Shown: positions 1,790-30,645 of the stretch, one piece after another
Layout: the number at the start of each line of letters is the position of its first letter
Numbering within the stretch: the stretch's first letter is position 1
Assembly (NCBI RefSeq): GCF_026151205.1
Contig: NC_087076.1
Coordinates: 12,130,902 to 12,162,174, forward strand
Length of the DNA stretch: 31,273 bases
Direction of reading: 5' to 3'
DNA from: Bolinopsis microptera
Lineage: Eukaryota > Ctenophora > Tentaculata > Lobata > Bolinopsidae
Notes under the pieces: generated by a model
The model's database searches: none
Told to the model about the DNA's origin: nothing
What the model saw: the letters and a program-made list of their open reading frames with translations, nothing else
Translations under genes and position numbers: made by a program

Positions 1790-3350
1790 GTAATGATTAT
1801 TGTGTAATGATTCTTATCACATTTATAAATTCAATAAGTGATTTTATAAATCTTTTTCCTTACAGCACATCTTATAGAACCAGTTTACTTCTAGTTATCC
1901 TAGTTTCATCCCAAGTTCAAACTTACTTTGAGTACTTTGAGTAGGTTTGGCTGGGATCGCTTCAGGACAACAGTATCAAGTACGTCCTCCTATCACTCCA
2001 CTGGGATCTTTTTGTAAGTACCATTCCAAGGGTAAGTTGTTGTTAGTAGCGGTGTATCCTTTAGTCGGAGGCCTGTCGGGGAATTCTTTAAGGAATTTAG
2101 CCAGTGACGATTTAAACGGGTCCAAAGTAGAGATGGAATTTATTTCTTTGGGAAGAAGATTCCACAGCTGTGCCGCTTTCACTCCGAATGAGTTTTTATA
2201 CTGAGTTGCCACAGAGTGAGTTGCCACAGAGCGCTGTGATGTGTTGTTCAGTGCCGGTACAGTGGCTTTTATTCCATGTCGGGGGTTGTTTTTGAACAGC
2301 ATGCCAATATCATTTCGGGCCAGGCCATTGAGAATTTTCCATGTGTGGATAAAGATGTACCTTTCTCGACGTCTCTGCAATGATATGATATTTATATTGA
2401 GTTTCGTGAGACGTTCCCAGTAGTCTAAACCACTACATCCGTTAATGCGTCGGATATATTGTCGTTGAACGTTTTCTATAGCCTCTATGTCCTTGTATTG
2501 GTCTTGGCTGGATTCCAGACAGGGCAGCAATATTCTAGCTTACTCCGCACCATAGTTTTGAAGTTTTGAAGAGTGTAAGCATTAGAAATTGTTATCTGTC
2601 CTTAAAGACACTTAGAACCCAGGATGACATAGTGCTTGCTGATTGGATCATTTTCTGGATGTTGGGAGTCCAAGAGCAGTTGTTTGATAAAATCACCCCA
2701 AGTCCCTGACAGTTTCTGCTGGCTCAATTATTTGACCTGTTGTAAGACTGTAACTGAGCAGATCATTTGTAAATGGCAGATTTCGTAGCAGAAGCGAATT
2801 ATTGAGCGTAAAGTCGAGGATCTCAAATTTGGCTTCATTGAGCTGCATATTGTTTCTTCGAGCCCAGGCAATGACATTGAAGAGGTCTTCTTGTAGCGAT
2901 GCTTTGGTGGCCAGGTCCAATATTTTACCGATGAGTTTGGTGTCATCAGCAAATATCTTTCCAAGAGAGGTAAGCAGTGCGTCCAATTGGTCATCGAAGT
3001 AGAGAATGAACAGAATCGGTCCCAACACTGTACCTTGTGGTACTCCACTTATCACCAGCTGGAAGGATGACTTAGTTCCTTCAACGACCACTGTCTGGAG
3101 ACGGTTTGTTAGGAATTCACTTAAACACTGGAGTATGTTTCCATGAATTCCGTAACGTTTTGCTTTTGCAAGTAGTATGTTGTGGTCTACCTTATCAAAC
3201 GCTTTGGCGTAACTTGACATCTACTTCTTCGCCACTGTTCAAGCTTTTCAATATGGTATCTACATAGTCTAAGAGTTGAGTTAGGCAGCTTCTCTTTTTG
3301 CGAAATCCATGTTGATGCGATACCATATCAGTACTATAATCGTGTCTACT
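1790..3350 (-). pseudogene. Decayed CR1/Jockey-type LINE ORF2 (reverse transcriptase)
   Basis: Read on the minus strand, this is the C-terminal half of a non-LTR retrotransposon ORF2. From its 5' side it shows a QHGFRKKRSCLTQLL block (about 3310-3270), then KAFDKVDH, SGVPQGTVLGPILF and the catalytic FADDTK (about 2965). Next come VRDLG, a SKLEYCCPVWNP segment, and the usual distal YWERLTKLNI / RRRERYIF / LWNLLPKEI region, with a stop at 1976-1978. The frame breaks at about 3222, 2696, 2580 and 2500, so it cannot code for an active enzyme. The 5' end, including the endonuclease, is missing, as expected for incomplete target-primed reverse transcription. The bases down to about 1790 are probably its 3' untranslated tail. 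Family placement is by motif only. Confidence 0.9.
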
Positions 3351-4134
3351 GTCTAGATTATAAGTTTGTAGAATTTATTCGTATCTAATATACAGTTGGC
3401 AGTAATATTTTGTATTTCTAAGGGTTGTAATGCCCGTTTAATCTACGATTTTAGGATTCGATTTATGGCATTTATTAATTCCAAGCTGAATTTGTCGCAA
3501 TTTATGAAAACAGTACATGGTAAGAAATTCCAAGTGTGACCTCAAGAATTAAATGGTCGTTCAAGACCAAGGTACTCTACATGATATACCTGCAGCAGGC
3601 ACCTGATCCTACCCTATATCTGCTGGCTACCATATATTATATTATGCTAACTGCCAAAGTTTTTTAGTTCCCGCGACATTTCTAGTGTTAATTGTGCTGA
3701 TTTCAGTTCCGGTAATGGTTGGATATGGTTGATATAAACGTTTAGTTTAGATTCTTCTCGCTACTATACTACTCCACAGACATTATACACAACCTTACAA
3801 CAATAACCATAGCAACCATCACTAATCTCTGTGCTGGAATTGAGGCAATGCCTGCAGACAGTAACACTTATAATATTTGCAATTTAGAAATAGAATGAAA
3901 ATAAACAATGCGTACAAATTTATTCCTTTTAGTTTGCTGACGTTATCTACTTCTCTGCACTTTGAATTTTCTGCTTAACTTTCTGGCGCACTGTTCATTT
4001 GATTTGTTTCGAAATGTTCCTTCGTTTGATAAGAATCGTTTTTGGACCCATTCATTTATGATGTTTTTGTCGATTGCAACAATTGTTCAAACATTTCGCA
4101 CTCATACATATTTTATCCTTTTTGTACATTTCAG
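3351..4134. other. Upstream region of the TRPA-like gene; dispersed repeat and probable 5' UTR intron
   Basis: No coding exon is seen. Bases 3502-3575 are the second copy of the repeat at 1142-1222. A strong acceptor (TTTGTACATTTCAG, ending at 4134) lies 17 bases before the channel start codon, so an untranslated first exon and the promoter should lie in this stretch, perhaps before 3950. I could not fix either. Confidence 0.45.
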
Positions 4135-4151
4135 GTTTGAGCTTGCTCAAG

Positions 4152-7100
4152 ATGGCAGAAGATCCGGAACAGGGAATAGAAATAACAATTCTTCCCCACC
4201 AAGATAACAGCCATGTAAACAGAGAAGCTTCCTGTCTCCTCCCACCACGAAGCAGCAAGATAGACTTTGGTAATGGAACCTGTCCACTGGACGAAGTAGC
4301 TAACCCACTGGACGAGGTAGCTAGCTCCGAGAACGAAGAGCAGGAGTTCATACCGGAACTTCTCAGGTATGGGAACCTTTCCCGCCAGGTATGGGAACCT
4401 TTCCCGTCATTTGAACGCTCCAATAATCAGAGTAATGGAAAAGATAACCGGTACTGGAGTCCTCTCCATGAGGCTATTGATCAGCCGGATTTGAAAAGGA
4501 TACAGGGGATGGGTCCTAAAAGGAAATTTTTGAAGGATTATATTATGATCGAGGATCCTGAAAAAGGCATGACCCCGGCACACGTAGCAGTTTCTAAAGG
4601 TAAACTTTACCTTGTTAAAATCTTACTCGAACAAGACCTTGATTTTACGGAGAAGCAAAAAAACAGGCTAAAAAAAAAGAATTTTTACGGTAGGACAGTC
4701 CTACATGAAGCTTGTATGTTAGGACATTTAGATATAGTAACCTGGTTATGTGATGAGAATGGTTGGGTTGGCTGGGATCCAGCAGATAAAAACAGTTTGA
4801 ACTGCAATGCAGCTTTCTTCGCAGCATCTTATGGTCATTTGGATGTCTTGAAGTATTTGCTATCACGCTGTAGCGAAGAAGAAAAGATTAAACTGATTGG
4901 TCAGCGACACAAACAGAAATACACGATACTGCACGGGGCTGTTTACTACAAGAAGCTAGATGATTTAGATCTGGAGACGGAGGAAAAAGAAGCGGAGGAG
5001 ACGGAAAAGCGGAAGCTTCTTCAAAAAAGAAATGAGGATTTGGAATTAAAGAAGCAAAAGCCTAAGAAAATGACCATGTTTATGTTAACAAAAGCTGTGC
5101 AGCTGCATGCATCAATGAAAGCGGAGGAGCGTACAAATGCCGAAGAAGAGGAAGAAAGAAAACGAGAAAAAGAAAAACAACGGATTGAAAATGCTCAAAA
5201 ACAGGAGGTAATCGACGAAGAGAGGCTTGAGCTTGTTCAATACTTGGTTGATGAGATTGTGAGACTGCAGATATTTAAAATAATGGATAAAAAGTCAAAC
5301 ACAGAAAAGATAACTGCATTGTATCTTGCCGCAAAGCTGGGTCACGTGAAGCTTGTCGCGTTTCTGTTAAAGTACGTGACAAACATTGAGGTGGACTGCC
5401 GGAACGTTAACAATGCAATAATGCTGCACGATGCTGCAGGGCACAACCGAGTAGACGTTGTAAAGTATCTTTGTGAGGAGTCTGTTTTCAAGGACTATAT
5501 AATGGATAAAGAGAATATTTGGGCCGCTATCCCTTTCAGCGGGGCAGCTTCGGGCAACAACCCCAAGATAATGAAAATGATCCTCGACTACGGTAAAGAA
5601 GTAGGAATAGCTGAACAAGATATGATCCTCGACCAGAACCGTTTTTATTGGTCATCTCTACACGAAACCGCAGTGAGAGGACACATTGAGGCCACCAAAT
5701 TCTTATGTAATCTGCACAAGGACGGAATCAACATTGTTCATCTGAGGGATAGTTTCGGCAGTTTAGCTTTGCACCTGGCTGCAATGGGGGGACATAACGA
5801 TATCTTAAAGATCTTGTTTCCACTGACCGAAGCAATCAACGAGAAGAACAACAAGAGGAACACATCGCTGCACGAGGCAGCCTCTAGATAGTAGAGGCTC
5901 TTACGGGCAAAAAGACGTGTTTTCTGCTACGAGTTTAGAGACCTAACCGCTAATTGGACACAATAGTATGATGTCTAAGGATCGATAATATGTTAAGAAG
6001 TATAAATTTGGCCTTATTAGTCACGTGCTATACCAATGCGCGTTATTAACTTTGACAGTCTATTACTCTAAGGCAACTAGAGTAATTATATTCATATTTT
6101 GTCAGCAATAAGATCACATTATTTTCTATTTGGTGTGAAAATATGAGCTAGAACGGACATAATCTCGCTGAGTTATAGCTGTTTGAAATTTATGATGAAC
6201 GCGCGGGTGCCAATTGATAACAACTAAATGCTTTTGCGCGTAGTGCGCGTCGAAAATTTGTTAAAAACGCTTGCGGAGTGACAATATTTAAACTTCGATA
6301 AAGTATATGAAGTGGGTACTTCTCGGAAAGGAAAAATTTAGGCAAACACGATGTGACTATTTTTGGGTTGATTTAATACAACTGCAAAAAATTATTCAAA
6401 CTTAAAGCAAAAAAGTCAACATTTTTACCACTTTTTTGGATTTTTACCTCAGAACAAATAGAGGGATTTGTTTTATTTTTATACAATCTTGTGCGGCTGT
6501 CTTTTAACTATCTTCATGCAAGTTTTGCCGACATGCCAACAAAATTAACTTGCTCAAAATATCAAAAAACATGGTTTTTTGGCCTATTTTTGGCCCAAAA
6601 ATCGGTTTTTTGCAATTTTACCCCAGAACAATCAGTCCAATCATCTTGAAACCACTTTTAATCGATTCTACGGTCAAAAATACGTCTAGGAAGGTGTATC
6701 TGGGGTCCCTAACGTTTCAACCAGACAATGCCCGTAAGAGCCTCTACTAAGAGGAAGATCTGAAACTGTCCAACTCTTTCTTGAAACCCCTCACGTGTTC
6801 CTGTTTAGAAGAGGACAAGATGGCTCCTCTGTGCTCCACGAGGCAGTCCGATCAGGCTCCACGGATTGTGTGCGGAGGTTTCTGGATTTCAAAGACAAGA
6901 TGCGTTTACCTTTAACCATTGTGACTAAAATAGACGGCAATACTCCACTGCATCTTGCTATATCCTTGCAGTACACGGAGATTGCTCTAATGTGCCTGGA
7001 AATGGAGACAGGTGGGGAGCAGTTATTCCGTGCTGTCGATAAAGTAAATAAGAAGGGACTGACCCCTTTAGCTCAAGCTGCTATGGCTGGTAACTTCACT

Positions 7101-8726
7101 ATAGTCGATGCTATCATGGCAAGGATTGAAAAAATTGAGTTGACGCCGTACAGAACACAAAGATCAGATTTTAACTACGGAGATTACAATCCTTTTGGTA
7201 CATTTCCTTGGATATGTGAGGAGGGAAGATCCGAATTTATCGAGAAAAATCGAACACCCATCAAGTTTCACGGGAATGACATTATTAATGAGACCTCTCC
7301 GATTAATTGTCTGATTCGAAAGTACCCAGATGTAGTTGTGGTAGCTTTGGATAAATGCTGGTGTCACCACCTGACTAATGACGAGGAAAACAAGAAGCCA
7401 GGGCAAATCGGGTCAATAAAAGGAGAAAGAGTGGATCCGGAAGGCGCTGGAAAAAGTGATGATGAATTAAAGAGTATCGCTGACTACTTTCGAGTAATCA
7501 TTGACTTCAACATGATTGAAAAATATGAAATGAAGACTAAAACAGTCAACGGCAAACAAATTGTCGATAAAGGAAACTCCTTCAAAACAATGGGAAACCC
7601 CTACAAACCTGGTGCTTACATAGAAGATGAAGCACCACTTCAAGTAATGTCCCGTGAAAAGAACGTCGCGCTGTTGACTCACCCTGTAGTACAAGCTCTA
7701 GTCGACATCAAATGGCGGAATTATGGGTTCCACTACTATGCTAGCTCAGCATTAGTCAAGCTCATTTTTGTAGCTCTTCTTCTCAGCTACACTCTCATAG
7801 TTCACAACGACGTGTTCAAAGATTCAACCTGGAATTGTACAAAGCCTAGTAATGAAACCTCGCAAACAGTGAAATGCACGATGCTGTTATCCAAGAAGTC
7901 AGATACCGCTTCAGATCTGGGTATTGCCCTACTGGTTTTAGTGGTGGTGCTACTACTAGCAGAGCTTGTAGACTTTATAGACGACATTTTTGATAAGAAA
8001 CGAGGATTACAAAAATACTTCCAATACAATCTGAATATCGTAGAAAGCGTTTCCTACATTGTAGCGCTGGTATCTGTCTCTATGACAGTTTTCTCCGACG
8101 AAATCTCGTCTGGAATGTGGCAAGTGAGCGCCGCAGCGGTCGTGTGCTCCTTCGTAAATGTTCTCTTTACTCTCCGGGCGATCAGCTTCCTCAACATAGG
8201 TCTACACATCATCATGTTCTTCAAGATAGTGATAACATTTATCCGGAGCATTGGACCCCTGTTGGTGGTGTTCGTGTTAGGGTTCGTCTGTGTGTTCCAT
8301 ATCCTATCTGCGGGAGGTATAAACTCTCAGTACTCCTCGTTTACCACCTGGTCCGCGTACTATAAGACCTTGTCTATGGGTGTGAGTGGAGTTGCGTACG
8401 AGGATTATGATTCCGGTGAGGAGGACATTGCCATGCAGCTCATAAACGGACATGTGGTGGCTTTGATATTTTTTGCGATTGTGATTCAGATTCTCTTCAT
8501 GAATCTTGCTACTGGTTTGGCTATAGAGGATGTGAAGGAGATAAGGGATAACTCTAAAGTGGAGGTTAACATTGTAAAGATTCGGAATATCTACAAAACT
8601 GAACAGCTTCTTCTGAAACTTGGAAGGTTCCTGAAGACAGATTTCTTCCAGCCAAAGCTTGTGGGTGAACTAAGAAAGTATGTGAATATTCCTCTCTCAG
8701 ATTTCAAAATCAAACACGATACCTGA
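4152..8726 (+). pseudogene. TRPA1: TRPA1-like ankyrin-repeat cation channel, coding exon split by an 861-bp element
   Basis: TRPA channels are tetrameric plasma-membrane cation channels that sense irritants or temperature. Coding starts at the ATG at 4152 (MAEDPEQGIE), just after a splice acceptor. It runs to 5888, is interrupted at 5889-6749, and resumes in phase at 6750-8726, about 1237 residues in all (human TRPA1 is about 1120). About 14 ankyrin repeats are visible, with cores such as TVLHEACMLGHLDIV (~180), SLALHLAAMGGHNDIL (~536), NTSLHEAASR (~570-579), SVLHEAVRSGSTDCV (~606) and NTPLHLAI (~644). A charged insertion occupies residues 271-355. Six transmembrane segments follow from about residue 905 to 1175. 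A pore helix (WSAYYKTLSMGVSGVAYEDY) lies between S5 and S6, and S6 contains FMNLATGLAIEDV. Apart from the insertion there is no frameshift or stop. As it stands translation ends at the TAG at 5889, inside the ankyrin domain. TRPA membership is firm; orthology to TRPA1 itself is inferred. Confidence 0.88.
5889..6749. mobile_element. 861-bp non-autonomous DNA element with 21-bp perfect TIRs inside the channel exon
   Basis: The element begins TAGTAGAGGCTCTTACGG and ends with the exact reverse complement, a 21-bp perfect match (5889-5909 and 6729-6749). AGA flanks it on both sides (5886-5888 and 6750-6752), consistent with a 3-bp target duplication. Deleting the element plus one AGA joins HEAASR to GRSETVQLFL and gives a normal ankyrin repeat, which supports these boundaries. 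A TA duplication with 19-bp TIRs is an alternative reading, but restoring that site would leave an immediate TAA stop. No transposase or long open frame is present, so it is non-autonomous (MITE-like). The superfamily cannot be named. Confidence 0.85.
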
Positions 8727-9479
8727 TAGCTGAGAAAAACTTTTATTCATCCGATGCAATTTCTAGGCTTGATGTACTAAAATATAATGTATGTTGTGAC
8801 GAGATGTGTTTCCATGGCGACGTTTATATTGATAATTAGCTGTGTTTTGTTAACAAAGAGGCATTGTGACATTCACAAAATACACATTGTACCATTGTCC
8901 GATACAGACGTGCATTTTGTAGGGCTCACTTTTTAATTTTATGAGTTTTATCTTTCATTATATCAGCATGCAGAATTATGCTTAGACATAAAACAAAAAT
9001 CCTTTATAGTGGTATCCATTAGAATTTAGTTAAATTTTTAGAAAAACCAAAAAAGTTAGCTTTTTTTTCATTCATTAGGTATTTTCTTATTTGGGTTTCA
9101 GACAGATACAGTTGTTTTATTGTGCTATTATTCATACTGATACATTGTATTGAACAATTTATACATGCTAACGTTTTATTTTGTCTCTAAAATATGATAT
9201 TGAAATGGTCAACCTGTCTCATTAAAGCATTAACTACAGTCTGATAAACAAGTTGTACCACGTCGTACTGGTCACCATGACAACTGCCTTCACCTATCAG
9301 TCACGGTCTAATAAATGATAGGATCAGTCGATCGAGCATTTCATTATTATATGGTTTGACGGTATATTGTACGTGGTTGTGAGACAATACTATTGTCAAT
9401 AGCATCGTTTTTTTAACAGCTTTTAAAATGAGGTTTCTGCGAAAACGGAAAAAGGCACATGTCCAAATCTGCTTGTTCT
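8727..9479. other. 3' flank of the channel gene
   Basis: AT-rich with no coding exon. ATTAAA at about 9221 and AATAAA at about 9311 are candidate poly(A) signals, so much of this stretch may be 3' UTR. Nothing else is recognised. Confidence 0.4.
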
Positions 9480-12618: not shown

Positions 12619-13494
12619 TCATTTTTGCCTCTCAAGGCTACAAATCTTCCCTTCACGAATGAAGAGTTTTTTGTCCTTCTCAATACCAGCTCTTCTTTTT
12701 AGCTCTAGGACAAGTTCTTTACGCTGAGCTCTCTCTTCTGCTGTACGATCTGGAGCTAGGAACACCCTCTTAAATCTCTCTGTTCCACACAGTTTACTCG
12801 ACTTCTTCAGTATTTGTTGCACTATCGAAGAACTGGAAAAGGAAACTTTAACCGGTCTTGCAGCTGACGGTGATTTCTTGCCGATTCTACAAGCCTCAAC
12901 TCGGGGTTTCTCTCCCAATGATTCCAATACTTCAGCGACTTTTGTATTGATCTCCTCATTGACCTCCTCGCATAGCCCATAGACCATGATGTTCCTACCC
13001 AACTCCTCCTCCAAAGCAATTTGCTTGGCAACTGATTTAATGGATTCTGTAGAAATCGCAGCTGAGTTCTCGATACTACCGGATTTCACCACATCGCTAA
13101 AACTTTGTTTAACTGAACTGACTTCTTTCTGAACACCCTCAAAAAACTCAGTCTTGAGATGTTCGTTAAACTCTATCGCCTTAGAAAGTCCTTCTTTTGC
13201 AGATAATAGTTGCTCCTGTAGTTTTATAACTTGGTCCTGCAGCTGTATCATACCAGACTGATACTGACTAACGTGTACCCTCTGATTTATGATCATGTTA
13301 TGCTGTCTCTCAATGAGCTGCATGGCTTGCAAAAACTTTGCCGCTAAATCCCCCTTGTTACCAATTTTGTTCACGCTCTCATGATTTAGTTCTTGAACAC
13401 AATCGACTTTACACTGTTTCACGGTATCAAGTAGGAACTTTTGTCCATCGGTCTCTACTAAGTCAAATTTGAAACGTTCTGCTACTGTCGGCAT
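12619..13494 (-). CDS. LINE ORF1-type nucleic-acid-binding protein, intact, no ORF2 after it
   Basis: An unbroken 291-residue frame starts at the ATG at 13494 (MPTVAERFKFDLV). It has an N-terminal coiled coil at about residues 75-140 (LQDQVIKLQEQLLSAKEGL...), then an RRM-like core at about 165-245 (NIMVYGLCEE, VEACRIGK, RPVKVSF, QQILKKSSKL). A distal block follows: VFLAPDRTAEERAQRKELV, then LELKRR and FIREGKICS. This order is typical of ORF1p of animal LINEs, an RNA-binding chaperone that packages the element RNA. Normally a reverse-transcriptase ORF2 would follow; here only about 300 non-coding bases come before an unrelated LINE end. It is either a non-autonomous ORF1-only element or a retained gene. 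A homologous, different copy lies at 30973-31273. Confidence 0.8.
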   Translation of the reverse strand: MPTVAERFKFDLVETDGQKFLLDTVKQCKVDCVQELNHESVNKIGNKGDLAAKFLQAMQLIERQHNMIINQRVHVSQYQSGMIQLQDQVIKLQEQLLSAKEGLSKAIEFNEHLKTEFFEGVQKEVSSVKQSFSDVVKSGSIENSAAISTESIKSVAKQIALEEELGRNIMVYGLCEEVNEEINTKVAEVLESLGEKPRVEACRIGKKSPSAARPVKVSFSSSSIVQQILKKSSKLCGTERFKRVFLAPDRTAEERAQRKELVLELKRRAGIEKDKKLFIREGKICSLERQK

Positions 13495-13950
13495 ATTGTT
13501 GATCAGTTATACACAGTGTATAGTATCCGTAAAACAAGCTGTAGCTGCGAGTATGAGATAGTTGTTGAGATGATAAGCGCTGCTGATAACAGAGGCACAA
13601 ATTAGCAACGAAATAAAAGCGTGTATAACTGCACTGCATATAATAATGTGTTATCAAACTACATCTTTACGTTTGAAGAGCTAACATTAATTTAACAAGA
13701 TATCCATGCTTTCAAAACAACAATATTGTTGTTAGATAAAAATGTTATTGCTAATAATTTTACATTTCAGATCACATAGTGTTGAACAGACAGTAATCAT
13801 CCTGCACCTTCTACTCCACATTACAGTGTATTTTTTAACGTTTTTTGAGCTTTTTCAATGGTATATACGTATTGCTTATATCCGTCCTGAAACATTTATC
13901 ACCGCCAATACTGCCAAAGCAGTTAATGATATCAACCTCCACTATAATAA
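13495..13950. other. Intergenic, between divergently transcribed genes
   Basis: Hydrophobic open frames here look accidental. A splice-acceptor-like TTTACATTTCAG ends at about 13770 and ACTGTTAG at about 13976, so an upstream exon of the next gene may exist. I could not identify one. Confidence 0.35.
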
Positions 13951-28479: not shown

Positions 28480-30645
28480 ATGATGAATAGTTCTTACAGC
28501 ACTAGGGTATCAGCCCCTACTTTTGTTTCTGGACGTGAAGGTGGTAATGATTTCACCAACTTAAATCCGAATGGAAGGTTGGTGAATGATGAGCCTAATC
28601 AACCTGAAACACTCAACAGCATAAACGAAAACAACAAAAAAAGTTTATTTTCATGTACCGACATTACCTGGGTAGGCACTCTTAACACTAGAACGATAAG
28701 AACTGCCCAGAGGAAACTGGAGATGGTACATCTTTTCGAGAAGAGTGGAGCAGAGATTGTAGGTATCCAAGAGCACAGGATAGTCCATGAAGAGCCTGTC
28801 AAAGTAGAGAGAGTTGGCAAGAGCAGCTATCTAATTACTTCATCAGCTACTAGGAATCGGGCCTAGGCAGCAGTGGGCGGAGTGGGATTCATCCTAACTA
28901 GCAAGGCATTTGACGCAACTACGGAGATAACACCAGTGACGGAGAGAATCCTTAAGATATCTCTAAATGGTAATCCTACACCAACCTTCGTCTGTGTCTA
29001 CGGACCTACGGAGGCAGATAGTGTAGAAGCAGCAGAGAAGTTTCATACCGATCTAAGGTGTGCAGTCTCACAGATCCCTGCTCACAACTTCTTGGAGGTG
29101 ATTGGGGATTTTAACGCTCACCTATCAAAGAGGGACGAGAATGACTTTGGTTGGTATTTCCATGAGAGAACCAACAGAAATGGGGAGCTGCTTCGGGAGA
29201 CTGCCCTGGAATGTAATCTGGAGATTACAAACACCAGGTTCAGAAAGAAGCGGGGTAAGATGTGGACTCACCTATCGGATGGAACCCTGAATAAGTCTCA
29301 GTTAGACTTTATTCTAGTGAGGAAGAAATGGAGGAACAGTGTCAAAAATACTGAAGTCTACAGCTTCTTTAGTACACTGGGTACTGATCATAGACTTGTT
29401 TTGTCTAAGATCAAGCTATCTCTTCGACGAGCAAAAAAGCAACCCAAGAAAACCTGGTATAATTGGGGAGCACTAAAATCGGATGAAGACCTACAGAAGA
29501 GATACGCAGTAGAAGTTAAGAATCGGTACTCCGCTCTATGCGAGCAAACCGATGAAAGTGAGGTTACGGAACTGTATGGGCATTTTGTTGATGCGATTGC
29601 TGATACCAACAAAGCCATACTGCCTAAGAGAGAAAAGAAGAGACGTGACGATTTCGCGGGTGATCAGCGAGTTCAAAACGTGCGTACAGCCTTGCAGCAA
29701 GCTGAGAGTGAGACTGTTTATCACCGGGATCCTAGTGAAGACAGTCGACTGTCTGTTAAGCTACTAAAAACTGAACTGGATCAGGTGTACCAGGACATCT
29801 TTGAAGAAGATCTAGTTGCCAAGGTTAGAAGGGTCGAAATGGCTGCAGACAGATGCAAAAACAAAGAAAGTTGGAATGTCATAAATGAGATAACTGGCAG
29901 GAAGGCCAAGGGGGCAACTCAAATAAGGGGCAACGGAGCCGAAGAAAGGAAGGAAAATTGGCTTAGGCATTTCACGAATCTGTTCGGGAGTACACCGGAT
30001 GTGGAAAACGAGCATCCTAGGATCGAGACTCAATTTGAAGGACTCAACATCAGTACAGAACCTTTTACACTGGAGGAGCTTAAAGCTGCTAAACACAGGA
30101 TAAAAGAAGGTAAAGCACCAGGTGATGACGGCATACCACCTGAAGTCCTCAAAAGATGCGACCTGGATGAAATCGTGCTGTCCTTCTGCAACAAAGCCCT
30201 GACAGATGGTATTGCGCCAGATCAGTGGAGGATAAGCAACATCATCCCGGTCCCCAAAAAGGGAGTCTTGACCAACCCTGGAAACTGGAGGGGGATATCT
30301 TTGACTTCACTTGTAGCTAAGACTCTTAATAGAATGGTGCTTAATAGGATCCAGCCGGCTATAGAGGAGGTACTTAGGGACACTCAGAATGGTTTTCGGG
30401 AAGGACGGTCCACTACAAGTCATATCTTGGCACTCAGAAGGATTCTAGAGGGGGCTAGACAGAGAAATTTACCGGCAGCTATGGTGTTTGTTGATTTTAA
30501 GAAGGCCTTTGATTCACTTCACCGGGGAATTTTGATGCAAATACTAAAGGCCTATGGAATACCGGACAGTATTGTAGATATCATTAATCTTCTCTATGTC
30601 AACACGAAGGGCAAAGTTATAACACCAGATGATTTTTTGATTTGA
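28480..30645 (+). pseudogene. RTE-clade LINE: endonuclease and partial reverse transcriptase, one in-frame stop
   Basis: One reading frame carries an apurinic-type endonuclease and the first half of a reverse transcriptase. Endonuclease motifs in order are VGTLNTRTIR, IVGIQEHRIV, CVYGPTEAD, EVIGDFNAHLS, SQLDFILVRKKW and GTDHRLV. RT motifs are KHRIKEGKAPGDDGIPPEVL, ISNIIPVPKKG, NWRGISLTSLVAKTLNRMV, QNGFREGRSTTSHIL and AMVFVDFKKAFDSLHRGIL. A TAG at 28864-28866 interrupts the endonuclease (NRA*AAVGGVGF) with no frame change. After YVNTKGKVITPDD (about 30630) homology stops, before the catalytic DD box, where a minus-strand ORF1 element begins. The copy is therefore inactive, but otherwise well preserved and fairly young. 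Confidence 0.92.

Follow-up and report, generated by a model that had tools for sequence, protein, structure and literature searches.

Probable recent disruption of one of two duplicated TRPA-like genes by an 861-bp MITE-like transposon in Bolinopsis microptera

We analyzed a 31,273-nucleotide stretch of the Bolinopsis microptera genome (contig NC_087076.1, positions 12,130,902 to 12,162,174; hereafter the window), in which a long TRPA-like coding exon is interrupted by an 861-bp element with terminal inverted repeats (TIRs). The features of the locus are presented in Table 1. The position of the element on the forward strand of the window at this C5 locus was confirmed to the exact base, and the perfect 21-bp inverted repeats with AGA on either side, which had been described in the original prediction, were both found where it had placed them. 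The same prediction had stated that the flanking frames of 579 and 658 codons are undamaged and that removal of the element together with one AGA restores the reading frame. Both frames translate without a stop, and the flanks joined with one AGA translate through, reading ...TSLHEAASRGRSETVQLFLE. The element and the duplication together comprise 861 + 3 = 864 nucleotides, and their exact removal preserves the frame in the joined translation. The 5' frame starts at the ATG at position 4152, with a TTTCAG just upstream that resembles a splice acceptor by eye. The in-frame codon after the left AGA is TAG, formed by the element's own first three bases, so that translation proceeding into the element would stop at once.

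Table 1. Features of the interrupted TRPA-like gene and of the inserted element, in window coordinates
Feature	Position	Strand	Basis
Segment shared with the C11 paralog, which is without the element	3452..9140	+	Within C11:5995000-6001800, reverse strand; blastn
5' part of the interrupted TRPA-like coding exon, 579 codons, ankyrin repeats	4152..5888	+	Translation, Pfam
Left copy of the target-site duplication, AGA, 3 bp	5886..5888	+	Sequence; single AGA in the empty paralog
Non-autonomous TIR element, 861 bp	5889..6749	+	Without any frame of at least 150 aa inside
Left TIR, 21 bp	5889..5909	+	Perfect pairing with the right TIR
Right TIR, 21 bp, 100% complementary to the left	6729..6749	-	Inverted-repeat comparison
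Right copy of the target-site duplication, AGA, 3 bp	6750..6752	+	Sequence; comparison with family copies
3' part of the interrupted exon, 658 codons and stop; last ankyrin repeats, TRPA1-like channel region	6750..8726	+	Translation, Pfam, structure matches

Ankyrin Pfam models matched both halves of the window gene, and no ion-channel Pfam model matched either half at an E-value of 0.1. A comparison of the 3' part with solved structures gave, as its nine best matches, eight entries named TRPA1 (best E-value 1.1e-19) and, in ninth place, 3j9p, whose listed name ends in 'channel subfamily'; these were followed by ankyrin entries and then by TRPV6 at an E-value of 5.3e-10. As judged from these matches, the window gene has the predicted layout of a TRPA channel, in which ankyrin repeats precede a channel region of the TRPA type.

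The paralog on C11 matches the window over 3452-5888 with 92.8% identity (2450 aligned columns) and over 6739-9140 with 94.1% identity (2405 aligned columns), both by blastn. Its empty site reads CTCTAGAGGAAG with a single AGA, and its frame of 1,228 codons is intact from the equivalent ATG to the TGA. Over 1,227 aligned codons, the two genes are separated by about 186 substitutions, with a dS of 0.098, a dN of 0.040, and a dN/dS of 0.40 (0.53 for the 5' part and 0.33 for the 3' part). By this measure, each half of the gene evolved under constraint during some of the period after the duplication, in one or both lineages. At about window positions 4365-4408, near the gene start, the window gene has 21 bases more than the paralog, which leaves the frame intact, and a 22-base stretch is repeated there head to tail, with the period estimated by eye. 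Two further TRPA-like fragments of the same family, both with stop codons, lie at C11:6002829-6003167 and C11:10538603-10539206; to judge from their sequences, they suggest repeated duplication and decay on C11.

Further copies of the element flanked by 3-bp duplications, for which the original prediction had proposed a genome search with the terminal repeat, proved to be numerous in the assembly (264.7 Mb in 232 contigs). The 21-base TIR, allowing up to 2 mismatches, was found at 482 forward and 466 reverse sites, compared with 0 and 0 for the reversed-pattern control, and the inverted repeat is thus not a chance occurrence. Searching with the whole element gave 46 matches, comprising 5 partial ones and 41 full-length 861-bp places, the latter number being a lower bound for the family since 40 of 726 first-look candidates were scored. 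Among the first 100 TIR places listed, 34 adjacent TIR pairs span 667-868 bp, 17 of them exactly 861 bp. We examined 38 of the 41 full-length copies; these stand closest in sequence to the window copy and do not form a random sample of the family. The ends TAGTAG...CTACTA are present in all 38, and an exact 3-bp duplication flanks 36 of them, with 21 different sequences among these duplications; the two exceptions are L025 and L034.

Three features expected of a transposon insertion were found, namely TIRs conserved among copies, a duplication of fixed length (3 bp), and an empty site in a homologue. The 94% identical paralog runs uninterrupted through the site, which argues both for a real insertion and for the two halves being parts of one gene. 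Judged on these sequence features, the 861-bp element is a real insertion of a non-autonomous DNA transposon. With the class of MITEs and non-autonomous TIR transposons it shares the TIRs, a common length, hundreds of TIR sites in the genome, target-site duplications, and an interior without a frame of at least 150 aa, although 861 bp is long for a MITE. A literature search with 12-base words from the TIR returned one match, in a paper on feather growth, which we take to be chance; transposon databases lie outside that literature, and the single match is therefore no evidence that the family is unpublished.

The assignment of the family to a superfamily was considered with respect to PIF/Harbinger, which is defined by a 3-bp TWA target-site duplication. 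The 861-bp family shares with it the 3-bp duplication and a mild lean toward T-W-A. The duplications lean to A/T, with T in the first position in 37 of 72 and A in the third position in 37 of 72 when the strands are pooled. In contrast to the PIF/Harbinger definition, just 7 of the 36 duplications are TTA or TAA. The genome contains 114 matches to Harbinger-type transposases, including 15 on C1 and C2. Within 23 kb of 12 of these Harbinger-type (DDE_Tnp_4) matches on C1 and C2, none of the first 100 TIR places listed was found; the three other matches on these two contigs lie beyond the end of the TIR list at C2:16.0 Mb, and the comparison was confined to C1 and C2.

The first 100 TIR places listed also include six adjacent pairs in plus/minus orientation that are more than 1 kb apart, the sixth with its ends separated by 87 kb. 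The other five were read: A (L016), B (L017 and L018), C (L019 and L020), D (L041 and L042), and E (L043 and L044). Elements A (9.0 kb), B (10.4 kb), and E (14.8 kb) form one large family, each sharing approximately 340 bases of the right end of the 861-bp element. These three carry GGGTCA-type tandem arrays, and LINE-like frames were seen by eye in some of them. Element C (C1:8341262-8353074), an 861-type copy, has reached 11.8 kb through a tandem array in which a 355-bp unit is repeated 28.5 times. Here a transposon harbors a satellite array, and an ATA duplication lies outside the element. At D (C2:2639842-2652544), an 861-type copy contains a further element of 11.8 kb, whose TIRs are almost the same and which is flanked by ATA duplications. 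A second copy of this inner element ends at C2:4226913 (L065), with 97% identity over the 3.0 kb read. Judged by its sequence, this inner element may stand nearer to the autonomous source.

Six-frame Pfam scans, which covered A and the inner element of D (two tiles) out of the five, recognized no transposase. They gave weak matches to a reverse transcriptase (E-value 0.0031) and to Serglycin (E-value 0.0011), both under the curated cut-offs. A further 16 TIR places with no near mate in the list were read 3 kb inwards. Seven of them (L058, L059, and L066-L070) correspond to the 861-bp element over all or almost all of its length, and at the remaining nine the match is limited to a part of it or of the ends of A and B; no transposase was recognized by eye among the frames longer than 100 aa at these 16 places.

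The age of the insertion was estimated from the relatives of the window copy. It belongs to a group of four with the copies at C6:6848018, C10:7085077, and C12:12021456, from which it differs by 4, 5, and 8 positions out of 861. Each member of the group departs from the majority of the 38 copies at 17-19 positions, 14 of which are common to all four. Two changes, at element positions 516 and 802, are absent from the other three and are the window copy's own, approximately 0.23%, a figure that applies to the window copy within its group in a 38-copy sample biased toward similar copies. With only two changes of its own in 861 positions relative to its three closest relatives, the window copy is, by this sequence estimate, young.

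We further assessed whether other copies interrupt reading frames. The joined flanks exceeded the 99% level of shuffled sequences in two of the 38 copies and stayed within it in the remaining 36. In both of these copies the frame is open throughout approximately 600 bases, with 199 codons in the window gene and 198 codons at C7:7448332. The frame at C7:7448332 resembles by eye a LINE reverse transcriptase, and, by a crude test of a biased sample, the window copy alone among the 38 interrupts a coding exon of the host. Long LINE-like frames were also seen by eye in the window itself, at 1976-3220 and 12619-13506 on the reverse strand and at 28867-30645 on the forward strand.

Based on these results, we consider it very probable that an 861-bp non-autonomous, MITE-like transposon has recently inserted into one of two duplicated TRPA-like genes. 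The family copies, the empty paralog, and the few changes own to the window copy bear out the original view of a recent TIR-element insertion in a TRPA-like exon. In the proposed course of events, a transposase supplied in trans by an autonomous relative would cut the target with a 3-base stagger and join the element in, after which gap filling would double the AGA; the target was the long coding exon in one of the two duplicated genes. The AGA duplication was demonstrated by comparison with the paralog, whereas the enzymology of cutting and joining is taken from established knowledge of TIR transposons. Since the large TIR elements scanned yielded no transposase, the mechanism is drawn from the element ends and the duplications.

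Unless the insert leaves the RNA, the allele would encode only the N-terminal 579 residues, consisting of ankyrin repeats with no channel. The insertion is therefore probably disabling, as far as the predicted translation indicates. We infer that the loss is probably tolerated, given the intact 94% identical paralog on another contig. That the flanking frames are still open follows from the youth of the insertion and does not necessarily mean that the gene is still in use. At an age of two changes per 861 positions, a coding sequence of 3.7 kb under no constraint would be expected to gain approximately 8.6 substitutions. In the model used, 4.5% of random changes create stops, and it is assumed that indels make up 12% of changes and that 80% of the indels shift the frame. 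The chance that an unconstrained gene has acquired no further disabling change is then about 0.3 (0.30), and it ranges from 0.86 to 0.01 over the Poisson range of 0.24-7.2 changes. With a chance of about 0.3, the absence of other damage demonstrates neither that the gene is in use nor that the allele is polymorphic.

Besides a very recent insertion, the original prediction had named a heterozygous or polymorphic state and removal from the RNA as possible readings. The insertion could nevertheless be polymorphic, a reading to which we assign slightly less than an even chance. It holds that the sequenced haplotype is filled and other chromosomes are empty, so that the gene would be intact in many individuals; it concerns the frequency of the allele rather than the mechanism and is compatible with the insertion explanation. 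Both the low divergence from the sister copies and the open flanking frames fit an allele young enough to be segregating. On the other hand, a search of the assembly with the 386-base left flank matched two places only, the window locus and the C11 paralog. This search found no empty copy of the C5 locus, although a missing match is no proof of absence. An assembly usually keeps one haplotype, and the missing empty copy is for this reason consistent with polymorphism.

An alternative that would allow the channel protein still to be made is removal of the element from the RNA, in which the paired TIRs would form a hairpin that is cut from the mRNA, with the ends ligated by RTCB independently of the spliceosome ("SOS splicing"). 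TIR pairing is reportedly the trigger of this process, and CAAP1 and AKAP17A are further SOS splicing factors. In the predicted fold of the transcript, which included 40 bases on each side of the element, all 21 of the 21 TIR bases pair and the exon ends lie side by side. The minimum energy of -235.6 is lower than that of any of 20 shuffles (-206.2 +/- 6.8). Removal of exactly 864 nucleotides would also preserve the frame, and RTCB exons are present in the genome (seven matches at C3:3326849-3331042), as expected for an animal. Such a fold is, however, unspecific to SOS splicing, since any TIR transposon can form a hairpin of this kind, and the youth of the insertion makes the undamaged frames unsurprising without rescue. 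No match to CAAP1 or AKAP17A was found here or in any of the control genomes, and the result for these two factors is consequently uninformative. In a review, SOS splicing is described as the excision of transposable elements from animal mRNA by unknown endonuclease(s), with RTCB performing the ligation in metazoans (PMC13247085). The window case resembles such substrates in having a DNA transposon with pairing TIRs inside a host exon and RTCB in the genome. Those substrates are DNA transposons excised from animal mRNA (Zhao et al., Nature 2026, cited in PMC13247085), whereas the window case is described here from DNA and a predicted fold. We regard removal from the RNA at this locus as improbable.

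Introner-type DNA transposons are known from other eukaryotes, and there is a very slight chance that the element acts as a new spliceosomal intron with GT...AG at or near its ends. The length of the element with its duplication is divisible by three. However, for the frame to be restored exactly, the removed segment would have to begin at 5886-5889 and finish at 6749-6752, and GT...AG results from none of these four choices. Use of the GT at 5891 would leave TA in the codon, giving TAA or TAG with the nearby downstream AGs in a non-exhaustive inspection by eye. Judged by eye from the element ends, a spliceosomal intron is unlikely. The possibility that the two halves are separate adjacent paralogous gene fragments, which the original prediction had named as a potential refutation and which the fragments with stop codons on C11 might seem to favor, can be practically dismissed, since the C11 paralog matches the two halves in the same order and runs through the site without a break.

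The probable disruption of one of two duplicated genes by a young DNA transposon is a clean but ordinary event. At the same time, a natural exonic insertion with perfect TIRs makes the locus a ready-made test of the removal of inserts from mRNA. The near-identical empty paralog provides an internal control, and the approximately 186 substitutions between the two genes distinguish their transcripts. Removal would be supported by an RNA joint in which ...CTCTAGA is followed by GGAAGATC and which has variants specific to C5 on either side. If true, RNA excision at this locus would be an example from nature, maintained in evolution, in an animal that is not among the laboratory models.
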